NCBI GenBank assembly: GCA_021741585.1
Contig: JAIOXN010000001.1
Span: 921,059 to 985,058, forward strand
Origin: Aquiluna sp.
Lineage (GTDB): Bacteria; Actinomycetota; Actinomycetes; Actinomycetales; Microbacteriaceae
Direction of reading: 5' to 3'
DNA length: 64,000 nt
Part shown: in pieces, positions 37,541 through 47,569 of the stretch
How positions within the stretch are numbered: position 1 is the stretch's first letter
How the letters are laid out: each line of letters begins with the position of its first letter
The notes under the pieces: generated by a model
The model's database searches: none
Told to the model about the DNA's origin: nothing
Seen by the model: only the letters and a program-made list of their open reading frames with translations
Position numbers and translations under genes: made by a program

Positions 37541-38818
37541 TTAGAGACCTAGCTCATCCTGGATTTTGCGAAGTTTGTAGATTGTCTGCTCGGTGTTTAG
37601 GTCGACATCTTCATATGTCACAAGGTGATCAATTGGTAGATCGCGCTTGGCGGTTGCACCCTGCAGTAATCCAATAGGAACCAAGTTGTCTGCCTTGGCA
37701 TCTTCAACTCGGTCTGCAACACCACGAGCGGAGAATCCACCAATCGCATCAAACTTCTCACCTGCGACGTGCGCCTTCTTAGTTGACGAGATGACCTCAG
37801 ACATGCGCTTGCCGCTAACCAAAGTAGCCCGACCATCGACCAGCATCTTGGCAACGGTTAGGGGAGCCTCAACGCTGGCTAGGTGGTATGGGCGATAGAT
37901 TGCAAAATATGGCCCCTTACCCATTGATAGATAGCTCATTTCCTCGGTGACATATGGAGAGTCAGATTTGACCACCACGAAGACACCCGGGGCAACATCT
38001 CCGGTGCAGTAGTCAACGACACCGGTCTCGGTCAAGACACCGCCTGCCTCAGTTGGACAGAACACATCTTGGAGAGTTGTCCTGGTGGCGTGCGGGCCAA
38101 TCATTGAGCGCTTCGAGAGCTTTAGCCCGGTTGCGTTGGCAAGGGCTGCCATCTCAATCATGGTCTTTGAGCCGTCAGTGAATGAAGAGAGCATCTTAGG
38201 GTTCATGTGCTTCGCCATGGCGCGCTCGTGGACGGTCTCTGGGTTGGAGTGAGGTTCGAAGGGGTTGTTTTTTCCCTTGCCGGCGCAAATCACTTCGAAG
38301 GAGAGGTCAAGTGCAAAGTCAACTAGCTCTTTGGCTTCGGCAGGCTCGTCACCATTGCAAACTGAGTAGAGCACTCCGTGTTCCTCAGCTGTCTTAGCCA
38401 GGATTGGACCAATAGTCACATCACATTCAACATTCAAAGTCGCAACGTGCTTGTTGTTGATTAGTGCATTGTAGATAACTTGAGCACCGATTTCGGCAAC
38501 GCCGGTCGCCTCAACTACGACGTCAACATCTAAAAGTGGAACAACGGAAGCGTCAGTAACACCAACCGGTTTGCCAGCTGCAATCGCAGCGTTTAGAGCA
38601 GCAACGTCTGAAGAGATCAGAGGCTCTGGGCGACCAAGGTCTTTATATGCCTGCAGGATTCTCTCCACGGCGATATCTGCGACAACAGCTACTTCAAGAC
38701 CAAGGCCCTGGGATTGATTGGCAAAGCCACGACCCATTTGCCCTGCGCCTACAAGTGCAATACGAAATTGCCGCCCCTGCTCTTTAGCTATTTCTTGCAA
38801 TTTCAATTTGTACTGCAT
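37541..38818 (-). CDS. COG4091-type NAD(P)-dependent oxidoreductase with SAF domain
   Basis: 425 residues. A Rossmann fold near the N-terminus (IALVGAGQMGRGFANQ, about residue 20; VVVEATGVAEIG, ~100) resembles homoserine dehydrogenase. The C-terminal part has SAF-like segments (GDVAPGVFVVVKSD; YLSMGKGPYFAIYRPYHLASVEAPLT, shown in part). This is the predicted-homoserine-dehydrogenase-plus-SAF family which, as I recall, includes DRL, the DXR-like enzyme of Brucella making methylerythritol phosphate from DXP. Homoserine biosynthesis is unlikely in a PTS operon; oxidation of a phosphorylated polyol is the better inference. Start overlaps the IIA stop by one base. Confidence 0.8.
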   Translation of the reverse strand: MQYKLKLQEIAKEQGRQFRIALVGAGQMGRGFANQSQGLGLEVAVVADIAVERILQAYKDLGRPEPLISSDVAALNAAIAAGKPVGVTDASVVPLLDVDVVVEATGVAEIGAQVIYNALINNKHVATLNVECDVTIGPILAKTAEEHGVLYSVCNGDEPAEAKELVDFALDLSFEVICAGKGKNNPFEPHSNPETVHERAMAKHMNPKMLSSFTDGSKTMIEMAALANATGLKLSKRSMIGPHATRTTLQDVFCPTEAGGVLTETGVVDYCTGDVAPGVFVVVKSDSPYVTEEMSYLSMGKGPYFAIYRPYHLASVEAPLTVAKMLVDGRATLVSGKRMSEVISSTKKAHVAGEKFDAIGGFSARGVADRVEDAKADNLVPIGLLQGATAKRDLPIDHLVTYEDVDLNTEQTIYKLRKIQDELGL

Positions 38819-39189
38819 TATTTGTTCTTTCTAATCTCAAACCTGGTGCCAGGTTGTACCGTTGGGAGCTTGATTGGAGCAATGCAGACATCCCCCGGTA
38901 GGTCTGCAACAAGATTTCCGTCGGCCTTTAGATTCAAGTGCCCAAGGTTCATCAGGTTCTCATTGGCGACCGAACCGACGGCCAAAATTTCAAATTCGTG
39001 CTCGTCCAACAGGATGAAGTCACCAGCTGCCAATTCCCCAGATTGCAGTTCAACTCTGTGCATTGCGCAGAACTCGTGCAATTCTTCCGGGGCACTTTCG
39101 CCAAAGAAGACCAAGATGCCTTCTTCTGTGAAGGTGGGCACCAATTCGCCGACTGCGATCACGGTGCTCTGGTAATAGACAGCTGGCAT
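38818..39189 (-). CDS. PTS glucitol/sorbitol-family EIIA component
   Basis: 123 residues, the usual GutA/SrlB length. It accepts phosphate from HPr and passes it to EIIB. The likely phosphohistidine lies in ELHEFCAMHRVELQ (about residue 43), followed by the family's AAGDFILLDEHEFEILAVG segment. Specificity within the family cannot be read from EIIA. Three bases separate it from the EIIB gene. Confidence 0.92.
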   Translation of the reverse strand: MPAVYYQSTVIAVGELVPTFTEEGILVFFGESAPEELHEFCAMHRVELQSGELAAGDFILLDEHEFEILAVGSVANENLMNLGHLNLKADGNLVADLPGDVCIAPIKLPTVQPGTRFEIRKNK

Positions 39190-39192
39190 GAC

Positions 39193-39567
39193 TTACTCGA
39201 CCGGTGTTACGTTGGCAGGCTTCACACCAGAAACAAAAAGCTCCTCGGTGATAAACATGGCCAATGGTCCTGCAGGTGAGGTGCCGTGGATGTCAACGGT
39301 GAGAACCTTCTTCATTGGATAGACACCAACGCGAGCGGTGCCACCACAGTCGATTACTGCAACGGCGATCTTGTCAAACGGCGCACTCGACTTGAAGCCG
39401 TCAAATGGTTCGCCGCCGGTTAGATCTGCGATGTGCTGAGCTAGCGGGTGGATGCCGCCACCAGTCACGCAATAGATGAGTGGGCGCTCGGCGGTTGGCT
39501 TTACGATGAGCGGTCCGCCCCAGCCTCCTGCACCTTTTTCAATTCTTACTGCTTTGTAATCTGCCAT
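39193..39567 (-). CDS. PTS glucitol/sorbitol-family EIIB domain protein
   Basis: 124 residues matching the N-terminal (EIIB) part of E. coli SrlE: KGAGGWGGPLIVKP at the start and VAVIDCGGTARVGVYP (about residue 70) containing the probable phosphocysteine, then the FVSGVKPANVTPVE ending. In E. coli this domain is fused to a membrane domain; here it stands alone and is encoded after the membrane part. Confidence 0.9.
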   Translation of the reverse strand: MADYKAVRIEKGAGGWGGPLIVKPTAERPLIYCVTGGGIHPLAQHIADLTGGEPFDGFKSSAPFDKIAVAVIDCGGTARVGVYPMKKVLTVDIHGTSPAGPLAMFITEELFVSGVKPANVTPVE

Positions 39568-39619
39568 TGCTACTCCTTAGAAACGACTTTGTTTGTTGTC
39601 AGAGAAAAGTTTATGAAGT

Positions 39620-39657
39620 CTTCGAGGGGCTAGTTAATTGCCGCTAGCCCCTCGAAG
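39620..39657. other. Perfect intra-operon stem-loop between EIIC and EIIB genes
   Basis: Arms CTTCGAGGGGCTAG (39620-39633) and CTAGCCCCTCGAAG (39644-39657) are perfectly complementary, 14 bp, with a 10-base loop. On the coding (minus) strand no U-run follows, so it is probably not a full terminator; a role in RNA stability, processing or partial attenuation is inferred. Confidence 0.7.
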
Positions 39658-39674
39658 GCTGTACCCATGTTTAT

Positions 39675-40217
39675 TTAGGACTGGTATAGACCGAAGCTTG
39701 CGAAGTAAGCAAGAACTACGGCTAGGGGACCTGTGATCAAGCGGGAGAACAGCACCGCTGGAACACCAATCTCTACAGTCTCTGGCTCTGCTTCTCCAAG
39801 GGCAAGACCCACTGGAATGAAGTCACAACCAACCTGAGGGTTGATAGCGAATAGAGCTGGAAGTGCGTACTGAGGAGGGATGGTTCCCTTTCCAATCTCG
39901 ACACCTAGCAAGGTTCCAACAATCTGAGCGATAACAGCTCCAGGCCCAAGTAGTGGACTTAGAAGTGGAATAGCACAAACGATCGAAACGATTAGCAGGC
40001 CAACAAGGCTTCCTGCTAGTCCCTTGATGCCGTTAGCAATCACGTCACCAATACCGGTAACAAGTACCAAACCGATGATGAATGAGATGAATGCCATGAA
40101 TGGAATGATGTTGCGGATAACTGTGTCAACGGTCTCACGACCTGCCTGATACAGGGTTCCAACAACGCCGCCAACACCGCGGCCGATTGTTACGAGTAAC
40201 TTGTTAAAACCACCCAT
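39675..40217 (-). CDS. PTS glucitol/sorbitol-family EIIC, SrlE C-terminal-type membrane subunit
   Basis: 180 residues with several hydrophobic spans (NIIPFMAFISFIIGLVLVTG; GSLVGLLIVSIVCAIPLLSPLLG, each shown in part). It corresponds to the membrane half of SrlE (RNIIPFMAF and INPQVGCDFIPVGLALGEAE are recognisable). It forms the sugar translocation path with the SrlA-type subunit. Start overlaps the upstream gene by one base. The EIIB domain normally fused to it is a separate gene downstream. Confidence 0.9.
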   Translation of the reverse strand: MGGFNKLLVTIGRGVGGVVGTLYQAGRETVDTVIRNIIPFMAFISFIIGLVLVTGIGDVIANGIKGLAGSLVGLLIVSIVCAIPLLSPLLGPGAVIAQIVGTLLGVEIGKGTIPPQYALPALFAINPQVGCDFIPVGLALGEAEPETVEIGVPAVLFSRLITGPLAVVLAYFASFGLYQS

Positions 40218-40807
40218 TAGGCTGCCGCTCCTTCACGCTTGGCCATCATTCTCGAGGTAATGAACTCAGTCACAATTCCGCGGATGAAGATGACAACTAG
40301 ACCAATTAGCAAGTACCGAAGAGCCAAGTCTCCAAGTCCATAGCCCAACTGAGTAATACCCGCTGCAATACCTAGGTAAACAAAGAGCTCACCTGGGTTT
40401 GCGTGTGGGAAGATACCGGTAATTGGGTGAACGTAAGAAACCGCCGCATCGTAAAATGCTGGCTTGAAACGTTCTGGTAGGAAACGGCCCATGGTGTAAG
40501 CCATTGGGTTGGTTAGGAAAAATACCGCCACGAATGGCAGCACGATGTAGCGAACTGGATACCAAATCAGACCAGGCTGTGCTGCTTTTCTGCCTAGGCC
40601 TTCAATTTTCTCCGGTCCGATGATGCGCACTAATGCGTTAACTGCTGTAAGTAGAACAACTAGTGTCGGAAGGATTCCTCCCATCAAACTCCAGAGGACT
40701 TCACCACCTTTGTTGAATATCGAAATGAAATATTCAGCACCACCAGCAATTGCTCCCCAGACACCAGTTGGATCTCCAACTGTGGCCTCGGCTGCTAGTA
40801 AATTCAT
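40217..40807 (-). CDS. PTS glucitol/sorbitol-family EIIC, SrlA-type membrane subunit
   Basis: 196 residues from ATG 40807, which has an AAAGGAGGG ribosome-binding site; upstream in-frame starts are rejected for lack of one. Hydrophobic throughout, with KGGEVLWSLMGGILPTLVVLL near residue 30, PVRYIVLPFVAVFFLTNPMAY near 95 and YVHPITGIFPHANPGELFVYLG near 130 (in part), typical of SrlA. First PTS gene after gutM, about 100 bases downstream of it. Confidence 0.93.
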   Translation of the reverse strand: MNLLAAEATVGDPTGVWGAIAGGAEYFISIFNKGGEVLWSLMGGILPTLVVLLTAVNALVRIIGPEKIEGLGRKAAQPGLIWYPVRYIVLPFVAVFFLTNPMAYTMGRFLPERFKPAFYDAAVSYVHPITGIFPHANPGELFVYLGIAAGITQLGYGLGDLALRYLLIGLVVIFIRGIVTEFITSRMMAKREGAAA

Positions 40808-40909
40808 CAACCCTCCTTTGGATCGAAGCATCGTCACCTTTGACCATGCTTAGGTCAGGCTAATGGCGTTTACTAGCTTCCGGAAGGGGATTCTTAATCA
40901 CATTTGTGA

Positions 40910-41284
40910 TTATTTTTTCAGCAAAGTCTCAGCTGCGTTCTGGGTGGCAAGAACAATCTTCTTTTTCTGGCCTTCTAGGCCCTTGCCTGCGGCAAGGTCT
41001 TTCAAAGAGCGGCCAACAACCAAGTCAAAATCTTTTGGATTAGCCAAGACCGTAAATCCTGTCATCACTCTAGCGCCGGTGACCACGCCATCTTTTTGTG
41101 CAAGCGCAACATACGCTCTTCCACCCTTATAGCGAAATCCGCCCATGCCGACGGTCGTTGTCGTTCCTTCGGTGCGAATCTCTTTCAAGCGCTCACCAAA
41201 GCGTCGCGATTGCTTCACGGTTAGGTAAAGCTGGAAGACCCACATCACGGCCACAACTACAAAAATCCAAGGTAGAACTTCCAT
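40910..41284 (-). CDS. Glucitol operon activator GutM/SrlM-like protein
   Basis: 124 residues. An N-terminal hydrophobic helix (LPWIFVVVAVMWVFQLYL) followed by a soluble domain with VGMGGFRYKGGRAYVALAQKDG and a TGFTVLANPKDFDLVVGRSL stretch matches GutM family proteins, auxiliary activators of glucitol-type PTS operons. Two bases separate it from the SorC-type regulator gene. How GutM acts mechanistically is not settled. Confidence 0.88.
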   Translation of the reverse strand: MEVLPWIFVVVAVMWVFQLYLTVKQSRRFGERLKEIRTEGTTTTVGMGGFRYKGGRAYVALAQKDGVVTGARVMTGFTVLANPKDFDLVVGRSLKDLAAGKGLEGQKKKIVLATQNAAETLLKK

Positions 41285-41286
41285 TT

Positions 41287-42255
41287 TTACTCCATTCCGG
41301 AATCGGTAGATTCGGCCATCTCAAGTACTTTGAGGGCACAGTTTGAGCTAGTTACCAACTCAGAGATTAGCTTGCCTCTGAGCGCCCCGAGAATACCGCT
41401 GGCCTTGTCTTCGCCGGCAGCAACCCCCACCACATGCTTTATTTTCTGAATCTCTGCGATCGTAAGGCCCACGGTGCGGCGCTCCAGTTGTGGGTCAACT
41501 GAGCGACCGTCCTTGTCATAGAAGCGTCCTGCTATATCCCCGACCATGTCCTGGAAGAACTTAGGGTTATCGTCCCGCGTCACGCCGGCTGCTTGAAGGA
41601 TGTAGTTCGAAGAGGTCGCCAGCCTGGAACCGATTCCGACATACGCGCGATCTGCGTTTTTGGCTGAATCAATTACTCCCCTAATGCTCGGCTCTAGCAT
41701 GAGAGCATTACGCATTTCGGGGGATTGCACGATCGCCGGAGCGTGCATCAAAAGTCCCTCGGCTTGTAATTTTGAAGCCATTGTTTGAATCAAAGTTTCG
41801 CCGTTGATGCTAGATGGGATATCGGTCATGCCTCCCATGATTGGTATCAGCGTGACATCCGGCCGATGGTCTTCCTTGATTTCCTGAACCATGGCCTGAA
41901 CCGAACGGCCCCAAGAGACTGCGATTCGGATATTTGGCTTAAGATTGCTCGAGAAGTTTGAGGCGGCTAGCGTGCCTACAGCTTTATATTCATTGGAATC
42001 AGCTGGGCAATAGGCAACATATGCTGCCCTGATGCCGAAGCGTGCGACCAACAGTGCTTCCAGTTCAGTATCGCGCTGAGAGGCCTCAACAATCCGAATC
42101 TCAACAATCCCCTTTTCCTTGGCTGCGCTAAGAATTCGAGAGATGTTTGACCGGCTGGTAATTAGTTCGCGAGCAATTTGATCCTGTGAGAAATTCTGCT
42201 CGTAATACATCCGCGCAACTTTGACAATTAGAGCCCTATCTCTAACCGATGCCAT
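41287..42255 (-). CDS. SorC-family sugar-binding transcriptional regulator
   Basis: 322 residues. N-terminal helix-turn-helix (QDQIARELITSRSNISRILS, about residues 25-44) and the C-terminal SorC effector domain that binds a phosphorylated sugar (SWGRSVQAMVQEI ~110; YVGIGSR ~205; GRFYDKDGRSVD ~245). The gene directly follows the E2 stop. The inverted repeat overlapping the -35 of the operon promoter at 45381-45414 is the natural candidate operator, with the PTS product or a downstream phosphate ester as inducer. Confidence 0.93.
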   Translation of the reverse strand: MASVRDRALIVKVARMYYEQNFSQDQIARELITSRSNISRILSAAKEKGIVEIRIVEASQRDTELEALLVARFGIRAAYVAYCPADSNEYKAVGTLAASNFSSNLKPNIRIAVSWGRSVQAMVQEIKEDHRPDVTLIPIMGGMTDIPSSINGETLIQTMASKLQAEGLLMHAPAIVQSPEMRNALMLEPSIRGVIDSAKNADRAYVGIGSRLATSSNYILQAAGVTRDDNPKFFQDMVGDIAGRFYDKDGRSVDPQLERRTVGLTIAEIQKIKHVVGVAAGEDKASGILGALRGKLISELVTSSNCALKVLEMAESTDSGME

Positions 42256-43317
42256 TTAGCCCCCATTCAAAAGTTGCTCTAAGTCCCTCAATGCTATTGC
42301 AGCTTCACCTGGGTCAGCGATCCTGTGATCTACAACCAAAGTTGCGTGCATTATCTCTGTCTGACCTTGTTGGAAACCCTTCCCGATTACTAAAGCAGTT
42401 GACTGTCCGGGCAATAGAAGTACGTTGGCCTGGCCAATTCCAAATTCCGCAAAGTCATAAATCGCCGTCGTTGCACCCGAGAGATTCTCAAATGGAATCT
42501 TGTTCATCTTGGCTTTCGCCAAAAGACCTGGAAGCTCTGTTTCCCAGCCGGTACCCTGATCGATTGCAATCACAGGAGAGACAAATCCGATCTGAGTCTT
42601 GGTGAGAATAGCAATCTTAACCAGCCCAACTTCAGAGATGTTTTCTGAGACGAAACTTGAATTCAAAACCGAGTTCTTACGAAGCGTTTTCTCCCAGGCC
42701 CTGCAAAGTTCTTGCATTCGAACACCAGAGTCTCCGGGTAGGGACTTCTTCAGAACTAGCTCACTTGTGATGGTGAACTGTGGGATCGCAAGAGAAAGCG
42801 AAACCATCTTTGCCATTTGCAGCCGTGCTTTCTGGGCCCGTTCCGGGTCCTCCGGGGCGGCTAAATCTGAGACCTTAATTACCCCACTTGGGCTTGCAGG
42901 CTTAATGGAGTTGAGATCTATTCCGGTCTCAGCTGCCAGCTTTCTTGCCCCAGGCATCGCCAAAATTTCGCTAGAAATATGGGCAACCATCGGAGCCTGA
43001 ACCTCGGGAGCCGGCGCCACGGCAACCGGTGTTTGGCTTGCCGCGGGGGTAAACAGGTCGGCAAGCAAATCCTCACCTTCGGTTTCTAAAATCAGCATTG
43101 GCTTGCCGACTTCTAGAACATCGAGCGGATTGGCACACAATTCGATGACGGTGCCATCGACCTCGGCCTCAACCTCCATGTTGGTCTTATCAGTTCCAAC
43201 CACTGCAACCACGTCGCCGGATTTGATTTGCTGCCCAACAATGACGATGTATTCAACTAATTCGCCCTCTGTCATGGTCATTGACATTTTGGGCATCACG
43301 ATAGGTGTCTTGGGCAT
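42256..43317 (-). CDS. Dihydrolipoamide acyltransferase E2 of an acetoin/2-oxo acid dehydrogenase complex
   Basis: 353 residues from ATG 43317 (TAATG overlap with E1beta). An N-terminal lipoyl domain carries K44 in VVGTDKTNMEVEAE. A peripheral-subunit-binding segment follows at about residue 115 (AMPGARKLAAETGIDL). The C-terminal catalytic domain ends with TLVVDHRIADPGEAAI, where the active-site His is kept but the usual D-G after it reads D-P-G. Short for an E2, with a single lipoyl domain, as in acetoin dehydrogenases. It transfers the acyl group to CoA. No E3 gene is nearby. Confidence 0.9.
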   Translation of the reverse strand: MPKTPIVMPKMSMTMTEGELVEYIVIVGQQIKSGDVVAVVGTDKTNMEVEAEVDGTVIELCANPLDVLEVGKPMLILETEGEDLLADLFTPAASQTPVAVAPAPEVQAPMVAHISSEILAMPGARKLAAETGIDLNSIKPASPSGVIKVSDLAAPEDPERAQKARLQMAKMVSLSLAIPQFTITSELVLKKSLPGDSGVRMQELCRAWEKTLRKNSVLNSSFVSENISEVGLVKIAILTKTQIGFVSPVIAIDQGTGWETELPGLLAKAKMNKIPFENLSGATTAIYDFAEFGIGQANVLLLPGQSTALVIGKGFQQGQTEIMHATLVVDHRIADPGEAAIALRDLEQLLNGG

Positions 43318-44306
43318 TAGACCCCCCTGAGCAATTCTTGAGCAGCGGAAATGATTCCGGGAAGCTGGGGCACAACCGCCTTTTCCAGCTGCGGAGCATA
43401 TGGAATTGGAACGTCCATTCCGCAAACTCGTTTGATTGGTTCAAGCAGCGAGTAAATGGCAGGGCCTTCTGATATTCGAGCGGCAATCTCTGCCATGTAA
43501 CCAACGTGCTTTGGGGCTTCCTGCACCAACATCACTCGACCGGTCTTGCGGATCTGATCTTCGATTGGACCCATGTCCAATGGGGTAAGTGAACGGACGT
43601 CCACCACGCTGACGTCTATGCCAATAGCAGACAGTTCTTGGGCCGCTTCAAGGCAGCGGGAAACCATAATTCCGGTAGCAACCATAACCAGGTCCTTACC
43701 TTCTCGAACCAGGTTGGAAACCCCAATTGGGATGCGATACATCTCTTCTGGAACTTCACCAGATGTCTTATAGAGCAGCTTGTGTTCCAAAACAATCACC
43801 GGGTTCGGGTCATCAATTGCCGAAAGCAACAGCCCTTTCACCTCATATGGACTCGATGGCATGACGACCTTTAGCCCTGGCACGTGAGCAAACCAGCTCT
43901 CCAAGCTCTGGGAGTGCTGAGCTGCTGCGCCGGTTCCAGAACCTGTCGGCGCACGCAGCACCATTGGCACCGAGAGCTCGCCACCAAGCATGAAGTGGAT
44001 CTTGGCGGCCTGGTTCACAATCTGATCCATCGCCTGCGCGGTGAAATCCGAGAATTGAATCTCAACGATTGGTTTCATCCCAACAAGGGCGGCACCTACC
44101 GCGGCTCCAACAATCCCAAGTTCAGAAATTGGAGTGTCGCGGATGCGCTCTGGGCCAAAGCGCTGAATCAAGTCTCCGGAAACCCCAAAGGCTCCGCCGT
44201 AGATTCCGATGTCCTCTCCAAGCATGAACACACTCGGGTCGGCTTCCATCGCCTGGCCAATAGCTTCGCGGACAGCCTCGGCGTATGTAATAACTCTCTG
44301 ACTCAT
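43317..44306 (-). CDS. TPP-dependent E1 beta subunit (acetoin dehydrogenase-like)
   Basis: 329 residues, normal for E1beta of acetoin, pyruvate or branched-chain dehydrogenases. FMLGEDIGIYGGAFGVSGD near the N-terminus, EIQFSDFTAQAMDQIVNQAAK (in part, ~80) and VDVRSLTPLD (~230) are conserved. With E1alpha it forms the alpha2beta2 TPP enzyme. Stop and start overlap the flanking E1alpha and E2 genes by one base each. Confidence 0.94.
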   Translation of the reverse strand: MSQRVITYAEAVREAIGQAMEADPSVFMLGEDIGIYGGAFGVSGDLIQRFGPERIRDTPISELGIVGAAVGAALVGMKPIVEIQFSDFTAQAMDQIVNQAAKIHFMLGGELSVPMVLRAPTGSGTGAAAQHSQSLESWFAHVPGLKVVMPSSPYEVKGLLLSAIDDPNPVIVLEHKLLYKTSGEVPEEMYRIPIGVSNLVREGKDLVMVATGIMVSRCLEAAQELSAIGIDVSVVDVRSLTPLDMGPIEDQIRKTGRVMLVQEAPKHVGYMAEIAARISEGPAIYSLLEPIKRVCGMDVPIPYAPQLEKAVVPQLPGIISAAQELLRGV

Positions 44307-45313
44307 TATGCAACCCTAAATACGCTTGAAATTAGTTCATCTGGTGAGGAGTCAGGCGCCTCCGAAGCGCTGCGAATCGCTTCGCGAATCGTTTCGCGAA
44401 CCTTGGCGTTGACCTGGTCGACCTCTTCCTTGGTGAGTAGGTTCTTTTCCATGCAGAGGTGCTCAAATTTCCCAATTGGGTCTCTGAGTTTCCAGTCTTC
44501 AATTTCCTCTTTGGTGCGGTAGAGATTCTTGTCGCTTTTTGAGTGACCCTTGTGTCGGTAGGTCTCAGCTTCAATCAGGGTTGGTCCGCCACCCTGCCGA
44601 GCTCGGTCAACAGCTTCCTTGGCTGCAAGGTAAACCGCGTCAATATCATTGCCATCAACTGTCACGGCTGGGATACCGTATGCGGCACCACGCTCAGCAA
44701 TGTGACCAATGTTCATTGAGAACTCTGTTGAGTTGGACATACCGTATTTATTGTTTTCACAAACAAAGATCACAGGCAATTGCCAAACTGCAGCGAGGTT
44801 CAACGCTTCATGGAATGCACCCTCATTGGTTGCGCCGTCGCCGAAGAAGCTGACCACGACGTTGTCCAGTCCCTTCATTTTCTGGGCAAGTGCGGCCCCT
44901 GTGGCAATTGGAATTCCACCGGCCACGATTCCATTGGCTCCTAGGTTTCCGGTCTTGGCGTCCGCTATGTGCATTGAGCCGCCGCGCCCACGGCAATAGC
45001 CGGTCTGCTTGGCCAATAGCTCAGCCATCATTCGGGTAAGGTCGGCACCTTTAGCTATGCAGTGGGAGTGGCCGCGATGAGTCGATGTAATAAAGTCCGA
45101 TTCCTTCAATGCTGCACAAACTCCAGTTGCAACAGCTTCCTGACCAATCGAGAGGTGCATCGTTCCGTGCATCATTCCGCGAGCAAATAGTCCATCTACA
45201 GCTTCCTCGAAGGATCGAATCGAATGCAAAGATTCGAGCGCTGCAAGAGCGGCCTCCTTGCTTTCTGATATCGCACCGGCATCATTGCCGAGCAGGGGGG
45301 TAATGGTAGCCAC
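44306..45313 (-). CDS. TPP-dependent E1 alpha subunit (acetoin dehydrogenase-like)
   Basis: 335 residues from GTG 45313, with GAGGAT upstream. The TPP motif spans [14 protein letters not shown] (about residue 166) to [29 protein letters not shown] and [14 protein letters not shown] are closer to AcoA of acetoin dehydrogenase than to pyruvate E1alpha by my reading. Acetoin enzymes cleave an acyloin, CH3-CO-CHOH-R, to acetyl-lipoate plus aldehyde. First gene of the long operon ending at 37541 or 37252. Confidence 0.92.
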
Positions 45314-45470: not shown

Positions 45471-45887
45471 TCAGGCGCTTACCTCAAGACCAGTTGGAAC
45501 ATGCGCATCCTTGAGGACCGCCCATTCCTCATCGGTAAACATTCTTGATCTGGTGATAAACCTTTTGCCCTCAGTGGACTCAAGCGAAAAGCCACCCCCA
45601 CGACCAACTACAACATCGATGGTCAGGTGAGTGTGCTTCCAATATTCAAACTGCTCGGCAGACATCCAGAACTTGATGGTTCCAGGAACTCCTTCAACCG
45701 TCAGCTCCTCGAGCATCACATCAGATCCACCGGTTCTAAACTCACCGGCCAAGTAACACATCGGCGAAGACCCATCGCAGCAACCGCCAGATTGGTGAAA
45801 CATTAGTGGCCCATTGCGCTTGGCTAGGGTCCGCAGCAGTTCCTCACACTCGGGGGTGAAGGCAACTCGTTTTGGCAATTTCGACAT
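45471..45887 (-). CDS. DUF779-family protein
   Basis: 138 residues from ATG 45887, preceded by AAAGGAG at ideal spacing; an upstream in-frame start is rejected. Contains the cysteine-rich HQSGGCCDGSSPMCY (about residue 33) and WKHTHLTIDVVVGRGGGFSLE (in part), hallmarks of DUF779. This family nearly always neighbours acetaldehyde/aldehyde dehydrogenases, as here; its function is unknown, a metal- or redox-related accessory role being possible. Confidence 0.9.
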   Translation of the reverse strand: MSKLPKRVAFTPECEELLRTLAKRNGPLMFHQSGGCCDGSSPMCYLAGEFRTGGSDVMLEELTVEGVPGTIKFWMSAEQFEYWKHTHLTIDVVVGRGGGFSLESTEGKRFITRSRMFTDEEWAVLKDAHVPTGLEVSA

Positions 45888-45922
45888 TTTTGTCTCCTTT
45901 GACAATTTCAGGATAAAGCAAT

Positions 45923-45948
45923 GCGGGTTGCGATAAATCGCAACCCGC
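45923..45948. terminator. Strong hairpin between aldehyde dehydrogenase and DUF779 genes
   Basis: GCGGGTTGCGAT, loop AA, ATCGCAACCCGC: a perfect 12-bp stem. On the minus strand it is followed by ATTGCTTTATCC, a weak U-tract, so it may be a partial terminator giving less DUF779 mRNA than dehydrogenase mRNA, or a stabilising 3' end. Confidence 0.55.
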
Positions 45949-45959
45949 TAGCTTTTGGT

Positions 45960-47483
45960 TTAGAAAAATCCGAGCTTGTTCTCTGAGTAGCTAACAAGCA
46001 GGTTCTTGGTCTGCTGGTAGTGCTTGAGCATCATTAGGTGGTTCTCTCTTCCGATACCGGATGACTTGTATCCACCGAAGGCTGCGTGAGCAGGGTATGC
46101 GTGGTAGCAGTTTGTCCAAACGCGGCCAGCCTGGATAGATCTTCCAGCGCGGTAAGCGGTGTTCATCTTGCGGGTCCAAACACCTGCACCTAGACCGTAG
46201 AGAGTGTCATTGGCAATCTCCATGGCTTGGTCATGTCCGTCGAACTTGGTCACTGCCAAGACTGGTCCAAAGATTTCCTCCTGGAACAATCTCATGGAGT
46301 TCTTGCCTTCGAAGACGGTTGGTGTTACGTAGTAACCACCGGCTAGGTCGCCACCGAGGTCGTTCCGCTCGCCACCAAGAAGCAGCTTGGCTCCCTCTTG
46401 CTTGCCGATGTCGATGTAGCTGAGGATCTTCTCCAGCTGGTCGTTTGATGCCTGGGCACCAATCATCGTCTCGGTGTCAAGCGGGTTGCCCTGCTTGATT
46501 GCCTTTACGCGCTCTAGGGCGTCGCCCAAGAACTTGTCGTAAATTGGTGCGTCAATCAATGCGCGGGATGGGCAGGTGCAAACCTCACCCTGGTTTAGGG
46601 CAAACATTGTGAAGCCCTCGAGACACTTGTCGTAGAAAGCATCGTTTTCTTCTGCGATGTCGCGGTAGAAAATGTTTGGGCTCTTGCCACCAAGTTCTAG
46701 GGTGACCGGAATGATGTTGTCCGATGCGTACTGCATGATCAAGCGACCGGTTGTGGTCTCTCCGGTGAAGGCAATCTTTGAGATGCGCCTTGAGGATGCC
46801 AGTGGCTTTCCTGCCTCAACACCGAAGCCATTCACGATGTTGATTACACCGGCTGGGATCAAGTCGGCAATCAAATCCATCAGGAACAGAATCGAGACTG
46901 GAGTCTGCTCGGCAGGCTTCAGCACGATGCAGTTTCCCGCAGCCATAGCCGGAGCAAGCTTCCAAGCAGCCATCAAGATTGGGAAGTTCCAAGGGATGAT
47001 CTGGCCTACGACACCAAGTGGCTCGTGGAATTGGTAGCTCACGGTGTCGTGATCTAGCTCTCCCATGGAACCCTCTTGGGCGCGAATAACGCCTGCGAAG
47101 TAGCGGAAGTGGTCGATTGCCAAAGGAATGTCGGCGGCCATGGTCTCGCGAACAGGCTTGCCGTTTTCCCAGGTCTCAGCAACCGCAATCTTTTCTAGGT
47201 TTGCCTCCATGCGGTCGGCAATCTTGTTCATGATGATTGAGCGCTCGGTTGGGGAGGTCTTTCCCCAGGTTTTGAATGCAGCGTGAGCGGCATCAAGTGC
47301 CTTGTCAATGTCTGCGGCATTGCCTCTTGCTACCTCGCAAAAAACCTTGCCTGTGACGGGGGTGATGTTTTCGAAATATTCTCCGGAACTTGGAGCAACA
47401 TATTGCCCACCGATCCAGTGGTCATAACGGGAGCGGAACTCTGCAACCGCTCCGGCGCTACCGGGTTGTGCATAAACAGTCAT
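45960..47483 (-). CDS. Aldehyde dehydrogenase, acetaldehyde-type (ExaC/AldB-like)
   Basis: 507 residues from ATG 47483, preceded by GGAGGT; a longer upstream frame lacks such a site. NAD(P)-dependent oxidation of an aldehyde to its acid. [16 protein letters not shown] (about residue 155), the catalytic glutamate in [14 protein letters not shown] (~255) and the catalytic cysteine in [14 protein letters not shown] (~294) are visible. The ExaC-like sequence and the DUF779 partner point to acetaldehyde or ethanol metabolism, and acetaldehyde is the by-product of acetoin cleavage. Confidence 0.93.
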
Positions 47484-47569
47484 CTTTGACTTACCTCCAG
47501 ATTTGTGGCGCCTCATTGCACCAACAGGTTTGAAAATACGCCTGCAAAAAATCTTTGTCACACAGATGG

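Follow-up and report, generated by a model that had tools for sequence, protein, structure and literature searches.

Why should a single operon encode a thiamine diphosphate-dependent dehydrogenase complex, a glucitol-type phosphotransferase system (PTS) and an oxidoreductase related to an enzyme of isoprenoid synthesis? The question is raised by a 64,000-nucleotide stretch of Aquiluna sp. DNA (GenBank assembly GCA_021741585.1, contig JAIOXN010000001.1, positions 921,059 to 985,058; here called the window), in which ten contiguous genes occupy positions 37541..45313 of the minus strand: E1alpha, E1beta, E2, a SorC regulator, GutM, EIIC, the membrane part of EIIBC, EIIB, EIIA, and an oxidoreductase of the DRL type, also called DXR-II (COG4091). 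The original prediction, made by reading the sequence, had named this gene set, and Pfam searches recover every member of it, contiguous and on the minus strand. Neighboring genes overlap or sit close together, the longest spacer (107 bases) lying between the two EIIBC pieces. The same ten genes are present in the same order in eight of eight Aquiluna-like loci (L034-L041); thus, the layout is not a matter of chance.

The proposed answer is a route for the consumption of 2-C-methyl-D-erythritol. The glucitol-type PTS would import this polyol (or a very close 2-C-methyl tetritol) and phosphorylate it to 2-C-methyl-D-erythritol 4-phosphate (MEP). The DXR-II-type oxidoreductase would then oxidize and rearrange MEP to 1-deoxy-D-xylulose 5-phosphate (DXP), with NAD+ as the preferred cofactor, and E1/E2, together with an E3 encoded elsewhere, would use thiamine diphosphate, lipoate and CoA to cleave DXP to acetyl-CoA and glyceraldehyde 3-phosphate. 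The SorC regulator would sense a sugar phosphate of the pathway. In many relatives MEP may also pass to IspD, so that uptake would feed isoprenoid synthesis. The assignment of MEP as the metabolite of the operon is well supported and can be held with considerable confidence; for the full catabolic route, as judged from sequence comparisons, the probability is about 0.72. In its overall interpretation the original prediction is supported.

The oxidoreductase resembles the proteins of PDB entries 3UPL and 3UPY over its full length (residues 12-423 of 425, E ~1e-89). These entries, named 'Oxidoreductase', represent the Brucella DRL, and the family divides into DXR-II, DLO1 and DLO2 (accessible part of PMC3847144, as for all statements from that paper here). 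In DXR-II, K191, K193 and T229 anchor the substrate, and R320 lies at the dimer interface (PMC3847144). The window protein keeps all four residues as well as a GKGKNN motif that is missing from the rows taken as DLO-type. In a phylogenetic tree, it falls among 98 rows that include the Brucella enzyme, apart from groups of 10, 4 and 6 rows that were designated DLO-type from their residues and not from sequences named as DLO in PMC3847144. By residues and tree, the window oxidoreductase groups with DXR-II, which favors the original interpretation, and a DLO-type identity is rejected. Its nearest relatives are found in Aquiluna and other Microbacteriaceae (best match, 82% identity). Inspected by eye, the second Rossmann strand terminates in an acidic residue (D or E) in all rows of the 98-row group except Brucella, which reads SARR; by established Rossmann rules, NAD is predicted for the operon enzymes and NADP for that of Brucella. 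The Brucella DXR-II is biosynthetic and NADPH-dependent. Two Nitriliruptorales enzymes with no operon in view (L091, L095) read D-R at this position. Elsewhere in the family, DLO-type homologues in L123 and L126 are clustered with rfbF and rfbC, which suggests the making of a surface-polysaccharide sugar.

Linkage among these genes was surveyed in 95 loci (the best 80 of 123 from one scan, plus 15 regions from 111 plasmid records with a match), with E1 counted above 250 bits and ispD above 55 bits; the set includes near-duplicates (L079/L096, L064/L067) and some loci that are cut short. The glucitol PTS, E1 and DRL genes, whose association had been made the basis of the prediction, are found together in 54 of the 95 loci, in several gene orders and in two phyla; 35 of these also contain ispD and 19 do not. 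The remainder consists of ten loci with E1 and no glucitol PTS, three with the PTS and no E1 (of which one, located at a contig end, also has ispD), eight with DRL and ispD only, and 20 with none of the three partners, among which is counted Priestia L115, whose E1/E2 genes lie partly outside the examined stretch. The order is E1-SorC-PTS-DRL in Aquiluna and in f33, a family that appears to consist of small-genome aquatic Actinomycetota, probably Nanopelagicales; PTS-DRL-E1 in Pseudonocardiaceae and Salinibacterium; and E1-PTS-DRL in Cryobacterium. E1 is divergent in Streptomyces, the PTS lies on the opposite strand in Nonomuraea, and two Rhizobium plasmids carry GutM-IIC-IIB-IIA-PtsP-SorC-DRL-E1a-E1b-E2. 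Other transporters can take the place of the PTS: Agrobacterium and R. sophoriradicis have an ATP-binding cassette (ABC) importer and a PfkB-type or sugar kinase, with lpdA, and Priestia has E1a-E1b-E2-lpdA, a major facilitator superfamily transporter, DRL and an FGGY kinase. Since a transporter and a kinase together replace the PTS, phosphorylation probably comes first in the pathway. Genome G028 has E1/E2, a galactitol-type EIIC, SorC and ispD together, with DRL on a different contig. Misfits are the DRL of Phyllobacterium, which has neither PTS nor E1/E2, and the DRL-E1-E2 cluster of Aminobacter, which is without an obvious sugar kinase.

Several neighbors seen in the survey extend beyond this gene set. 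On the two Rhizobium plasmids (L117, L119), thiC and thiazole synthesis genes adjoin the operon at ~15.7-19.2 kb; DXP is also a precursor of thiazole. The DRL genes of Chloroflexi, Planctomycetes, Clostridia and Calditrichota (several of L097-L113) sit beside FGGY kinase, SIS-domain and zinc alcohol dehydrogenase genes and, in some of these loci, fucose-isomerase-C genes, perhaps for another branched sugar. In Ligilactobacillus L116 the last genes of the DRL-PTS operon encode an aldolase of the fructose-6-phosphate type and a transketolase, which replace E1/E2 and could provide an alternative split of the product.

The substrate of IspD is MEP, and the repeated presence of ispD within the operon or next to it argues for MEP as the metabolite. 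Among the 35 loci with PTS, E1, DRL and ispD, the distance from ispD to DRL ranges from 5 bases to 7.3 kb. In L040 and L041 ispD follows DRL after 5 bases; in 14 of 14 Pseudonocardiaceae loci (L055, L057, L058, L059, L062, L063, L066, L068-L071, L073, L074, L089) and in Nonomuraea L061 it lies behind E1/E2, 3.1-3.5 kb after DRL; and in Actinomarina (L090, L092) it is within the operon. A fused ispDF adjoins the operon in Cryobacterium (L075, by Pfam) and in Salinibacterium (by similarity and length). In the eight loci that contain only DRL and ispD, the two genes lie within 70 bases of each other, either 15-58 bases apart on the same strand (L043, L046, L052, L053, L060, L065) or 67-68 bases apart on opposite strands (L091, L095). 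A class sample of 394 genomes contained 49 with a DRL match, of which 24 were carried into a comparison of dxr, DXS and ispD. In this comparison ispD was within 5 kb of DRL in 11 of the 14 genomes with a DRL of at least 49% identity versus none of the ten next-best genomes, which have a DLO-type homologue; eight of the 11 represent one family (counted by family, four of seven), and the three remaining genomes include that of the window.

Two additional genes accompany ispD in these loci. One is a second, weaker IspD-family gene (L042:12664-13311, minus strand; 50 bits, with the start of the profile missing) that is convergent to the ispD beside DRL and recurs in the same cluster in 14 other loci. 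The other, which encodes 103-113 amino acids (aa) and has no Pfam match, directly follows ispD (L042:12339-12650 and L040:11986-12327, both plus strand), with similar frames in 14 loci.

By Pfam, E1alpha, E1beta and the three-domain E2 (Biotin_lipoyl, 52 bits; E3_binding, 31 bits; 2-oxoacid_dh, 48 bits; all above cut-off) make up the subunits of an acetoin/2-oxoacid dehydrogenase complex. Against the pyruvate dehydrogenase (PDH) equivalog PDH_E1_alph_y of NCBIfam (TIGR03182), E1alpha scores 370.6 bits, below the cut-off of 393.85. A tree of E1alpha sequences, knowingly including no proven acetoin dehydrogenase, places the operon E1s in one clade that extends over Actinomycetota and Alphaproteobacteria (support 98/96). 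In this clade, which was chosen after the tree was seen, 60 of 61 rows lie near DRL, the window's own E1alpha (L129) not being counted; 25 other rows fall outside. Five rows outside the clade are nonetheless within 9.2 kb of DRL (L057_18340, L058_18297, L100, L107, L108), and the DRL-adjacent Aerophobetes rows L083 and L085 are sister to it with weak support (84/34). In the f33 operons E1alpha is 8.3-8.5 kb from DRL. DXP has the structure CH3-CO-CHOH-R, that is, it is an acyloin, and from gene linkage together with this chemistry we infer that E1/E2 cleaves it. In E. coli, mutants of PDH E1 raise DXP ~20-fold when DXS and DXR are missing from the strain (accessible part of PMC3424233); if an E1 can make DXP, then by reversibility an E1 could also cleave it. 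A residue scan of the DRL-linked E1 clade yielded candidates that include R45, H49, Y106, N123 and N127 of E1alpha, and no clear phosphate-binding site was found in that scan. The E2 frame that adjoins E1 in Actinomarina L090 spans just 90 aa, apparently a lone lipoyl domain, and L092 gives the same short match (13207 in both).

The rest of the window genome (1.39 Mb, 99.76% complete) bears on what the operon enzymes are for. The genome holds separate classical DXR, DXS, IspD and IspF, so the separate dxr that the original prediction needed is there, and an AceE-type PDH is encoded elsewhere (1309 bits against a cut-off of 859.9). Because of the classical DXR and the AceE PDH, the oxidoreductase and E1/E2 are not the sole enzymes of the genome for MEP or for pyruvate-derived acetyl-CoA; the possibilities that the oxidoreductase is its only DXR and E1/E2 its only PDH are thereby rejected. 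All four glucitol PTS families (PF03829, PF03612, PF07663, PF03608) score above cut-off. The sorbitol-specific NCBIfam models fall short (GutA, 111.6 of 189.55 bits; the SrlE pieces, 153 and 285 versus 400), and none of the ten operon genes encodes an SrlD-type dehydrogenase. The genes for EI and HPr are grouped elsewhere in the genome with a mannitol dehydrogenase-family gene and a PTS_EIIC gene, which makes mannitol less likely as the substrate of the glucitol PTS.

The direction of the oxidoreductase reaction can be approached through the distribution of dxr and ispF. Sediminivirga luteola has PTS-DRL-E1a-E1b-E2 plus SorC, no dxr or ispF detected in its genome and no ispD at the locus; since the two genes are not detected, catabolism is the simplest function for its operon, provided that the draft genome is complete. 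A search of 35 genomes detected IspF in 26, the other nine being S. luteola and eight of eight Chloroflexi with DRL; the dxr search in Chloroflexi covered L099 and L108. In 30 further genomes, whose completeness is not stated, classical DXR was detected in 13 and not in 17. It was not found in any of the eight f33 genomes with DRL (96-100% complete), all of which have DXS and DRL-ispD, nor was it detected in two of two Actinomarina genomes. Three of the f33 genomes (G262, G393, G114) contain the PTS operon and an E1alpha of 62-64% identity; the other five have no E1alpha match or one of at most 45%, and in three of these (G294, G318, G210) no PTS was seen in the wide flanks of DRL. Thus, the claim that the MEP pathway is run backwards fits S. 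luteola and has to be qualified for the three f33 and the Actinomarina genomes with the operon, where dxr is not detected and the enzyme probably also works forwards. Functional DXR-II has been described in Finegoldia, which has neither MEP nor mevalonate genes, and in Chloroflexus, which has mevalonate only, and a published puzzle is why DXR-II occurs where DXR-I is already present, where mevalonate is the sole route or where both pathways are missing (PMC3847144). A catabolic role for DXR-II would explain the Finegoldia and Chloroflexus cases. As for DXS, it lies in a shorter frame (~600 aa) with a two-piece match in G262 (C18:431-1150), G393 (C101:34745-35467) and G114 (C2:301264-301947), perhaps an altered enzyme; the five other f33 genomes give a full match.

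A number of observations weigh against the catabolic route. The step from MEP to DXP is uphill and must be pulled. In the window genome ispD lies ~0.4 Mb from the operon, six of the eight Aquiluna-like loci are without ispD, and in L086 and L098 ispD and DRL are on opposite strands. Listeria and Ligilactobacillus have the PTS and DRL without E1/E2. Part of the linkage between E1 and DRL seen in the tree is built in, because most E1 rows were fetched through DRL; in a fairer test, an E1alpha search of 14 DRL-bearing genomes, the match was within 8 kb of DRL in eight of nine cases with at least 62% identity versus none of 21 weaker ones. In the oxidoreductase tree, the branch that joins all DXR-II-type rows reaches just 83% SH-aLRT, and Ala replaces T229 in three operon-type homologues (G373, G028, G040). 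Position 250, which is His in all but four of the published DXR-II proteins (PMC3847144), is Ile in the window enzyme, Tyr or Phe in the f33 enzymes, which seem to be the sole DXR of their genomes, and Thr in most Pseudonocardiaceae; given the published exceptions, His250 is not strictly required. Because f33 enzymes without the operon retain a plain D at the end of the second Rossmann strand, the NAD-type motif is neither proof of catabolism nor a clean marker of direction. The absence of dxr or ispF from draft genomes may reflect assembly gaps, and the enzyme probably doubles as a source of MEP in genomes that lack classical dxr, where the operon is therefore not necessarily purely catabolic. 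In the Aerophobetes loci L085 and L107, which have DRL and E1, ispF is present and dxr not detected; here too the enzyme may be biosynthetic as well.

The operon might instead serve mainly to salvage isoprenoid precursors. Imported MEP would then go chiefly to IspD, the oxidoreductase would balance MEP against DXP (for thiamine, pyridoxal and isoprenoids), and E1/E2 would drain surplus DXP. Such a function would account for the 35 of 54 loci in which ispD lies within the operon or adjoins it, and the genomes without detected classical dxr (eight of eight f33 with DRL, two of two Actinomarina) need the oxidoreductase for MEP. However, S. luteola carries the operon with neither dxr nor ispF detected, ispD is missing from the other 19 loci (some of them cut short), and a dedicated E1/E2, accompanied by lpdA in three operons, points to the flow of carbon and energy. 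Salvage as the main function is therefore unlikely, though less so than the two readings that change the substrate.

One of these keeps the chemistry and replaces the 2-C-methyl tetritol by a different branched polyol, such as apiitol or hamamelitol. The kinase, SIS-domain and zinc alcohol dehydrogenase genes beside the DRL homologues of Chloroflexi, Planctomycetes and Clostridia, and the aldolase and transketolase in the place of E1/E2 in Ligilactobacillus, suggest that the family may serve several branched sugars. In Actinomycetota, however, the ispD link points to MEP. In addition, acyloin cleavage to acetyl-CoA calls for a CH3-CO-CHOH product, which on chemical grounds 2-C-methyl polyols would give and hydroxymethyl-branched polyols would not, so that for the window a different branched polyol is quite improbable. 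The other describes an ordinary polyol operon, in which the PTS would import sorbitol or another unbranched polyol, the oxidoreductase would be a plain dehydrogenase of polyol phosphates, and E1/E2 would act on acetoin or pyruvate. Its PTS genes do belong to the glucitol family, one of them passing the SrlA equivalog cut-off, and four DLO1/DLO2 relatives failed to complement DXR (PMC3847144). Yet the window oxidoreductase has the residues of DXR-II and not those of the DLO type, the genome has its own AceE PDH, ispD recurs, and DRL and E1/E2 stay together where other transporters and kinases replace the PTS; this is the least credible of the explanations and would be surprising if true. The route from methylerythritol through MEP and DXP to acetyl-CoA and glyceraldehyde 3-phosphate is thus preferred.

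The features of the operon are collected in Table 1. The SAF domain of the oxidoreductase scores 20.9 bits in Pfam, just under the cut-off of 21. Hairpins are present at the site equivalent to the intergenic stretch between the EIIBC pieces in the six relatives that were folded (L034, L036, L038-L041; -30.2 to -46.5 kcal/mol, like the window value obtained without a shuffled control); the structure is kept among relatives and the sequence hardly at all. The hairpin in the split EIIBC may determine how much membrane subunit is made relative to the soluble PTS subunits. No shared operator is evident upstream of E1alpha. Just upstream in the same orientation (window positions 45471-47561) lie a DUF779 gene and an aldehyde dehydrogenase gene, which probably form a separate unit.

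Table 1. Features of the operon and their positions in the window
Feature	Position	Strand	Details
E1 alpha of a thiamine diphosphate (acetoin/2-oxoacid type) dehydrogenase complex	44306..45313	-	335 aa; first gene of the operon; Pfam E1_dh 312 bits
E1 beta	43317..44306	-	329 aa; Pfam Transket_pyr 150.7 bits, Transketolase_C 114 bits
E2 dihydrolipoamide acyltransferase	42256..43320	-	~354 aa from ATG at 43320; lipoyl, E3-binding and catalytic domains
SorC/LsrR-type sugar-binding regulator	41287..42255	-	322 aa; Pfam Sugar-bind 210 bits; NCBIfam LsrR 130.6 bits, below cut-off
GutM-like protein	40910..41284	-	124 aa; Pfam GutM 58 bits
Glucitol-type PTS EIIC (SrlA)	40217..40837	-	206 aa as called; Pfam EII-GUT 236 bits; NCBIfam SrlA equivalog 224 bits, above cut-off of 150
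EIIBC membrane part (C-terminal SrlE), own gene	39675..40217	-	180 aa; Pfam EIIBC-GUT_C 163.6 bits
Intergenic stretch with strong hairpin, between the two EIIBC pieces	39568..39674	-	folding -31.8 kcal/mol, without shuffled control
EIIB (N-terminal SrlE)	39193..39567	-	124 aa; Pfam EIIBC-GUT_N 168.4 bits
EIIA (SrlB/GutA)	38818..39189	-	123 aa; Pfam PTSIIA_gutA 108.4 bits
DXR-II/DRL-type oxidoreductase, proposed NAD-linked MEP to DXP enzyme	37541..38818	-	425 aa; Pfam DRL_cat 214.4 bits, NAD_binding_3 31 bits

Methyltetrols arise from the oxidation of isoprene. Plants accumulate methylerythritol and its glucosides, with which the plant pool of 2-C-methyl-D-erythritol 2,4-cyclodiphosphate correlates, and accumulation of this cyclodiphosphate leads plants and microbes to export it, although bacteria do not always do so (accessible part of PMC11192765). 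Were the proposed route correct, it would constitute a catabolic pathway for a free intermediate of the MEP pathway, with an E1/E2 complex acting on a substrate new to such complexes, and would explain why some bacteria keep a seemingly redundant DXR-II beside DXR-I, with mevalonate only, or with neither pathway. It would also tie small-genome aquatic Actinomycetota to the methylerythritol of plants and algae and perhaps to isoprene-derived methyltetrols, and some of these bacteria could bypass the first two steps of the MEP pathway through uptake. Extending this to bacteria at large, a widespread assimilation of methylerythritol, with a dedicated E1/E2 and an IspD branch, in which DXR-II is mainly a catabolic family and its biosynthetic role (Brucella, f33) was recruited after loss of the classical DXR, is somewhat favored. 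The individual parts come from known families. What appears to be undescribed, within the open-licence PubMed Central literature that was searched, is the pathway itself, the complex that would cleave DXP and a catabolic function for DXR-II. Methylerythritol catabolism, cleavage of DXP by E1/E2, and DXR-II in PTS operons are not among the matches listed there, a scope that leaves most subscription papers outside, and the accessible part of PMC3847144 gives no match for 'catabol' or 'sorbitol'.

Each module of the operon nevertheless has a well-known counterpart. The oxidoreductase is like the Brucella DXR-II in its full-length homology, its catalytic domain and its K191, K193, T229 and R320, and unlike it in belonging to a PTS-E1/E2 operon of a genome with a separate DXR-I, in having Ile250, and in having an acidic NAD-type residue in place of SARR. 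Acetoin dehydrogenase splits an acyloin into acetyl-CoA and an aldehyde. With this enzyme and with complexes of the PDH type, the window E1alpha-E1beta-E2 shares its subunits and its thiamine diphosphate and lipoyl chemistry; it differs in that its E1alpha does not reach the PDH equivalog cut-off and falls in a clade whose members are mostly linked to DRL, and its proposed substrate, DXP, is phosphorylated. The E. coli srl/gut operon, which encodes the sorbitol-6-phosphate dehydrogenase SrlD, the regulator SrlR and EIIBC as one protein, has the same EIIA, EIIB, EIIC and GutM families, whereas the window operon lacks SrlD, has SorC for SrlR, makes EIIBC from two genes and adds DRL and E1/E2. 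Finally, the lsr pathway for autoinducer-2, under the control of LsrR, depends on an ABC importer together with a kinase and a thiolase to turn a C5 sugar phosphate that bears a methyl ketone into acetyl-CoA and a triose phosphate. The type of regulator (SorC/LsrR) and the proposed type of product are shared with this pathway, but the window operon would reach them by a PTS, a reductoisomerase and a thiamine-dependent cleavage.

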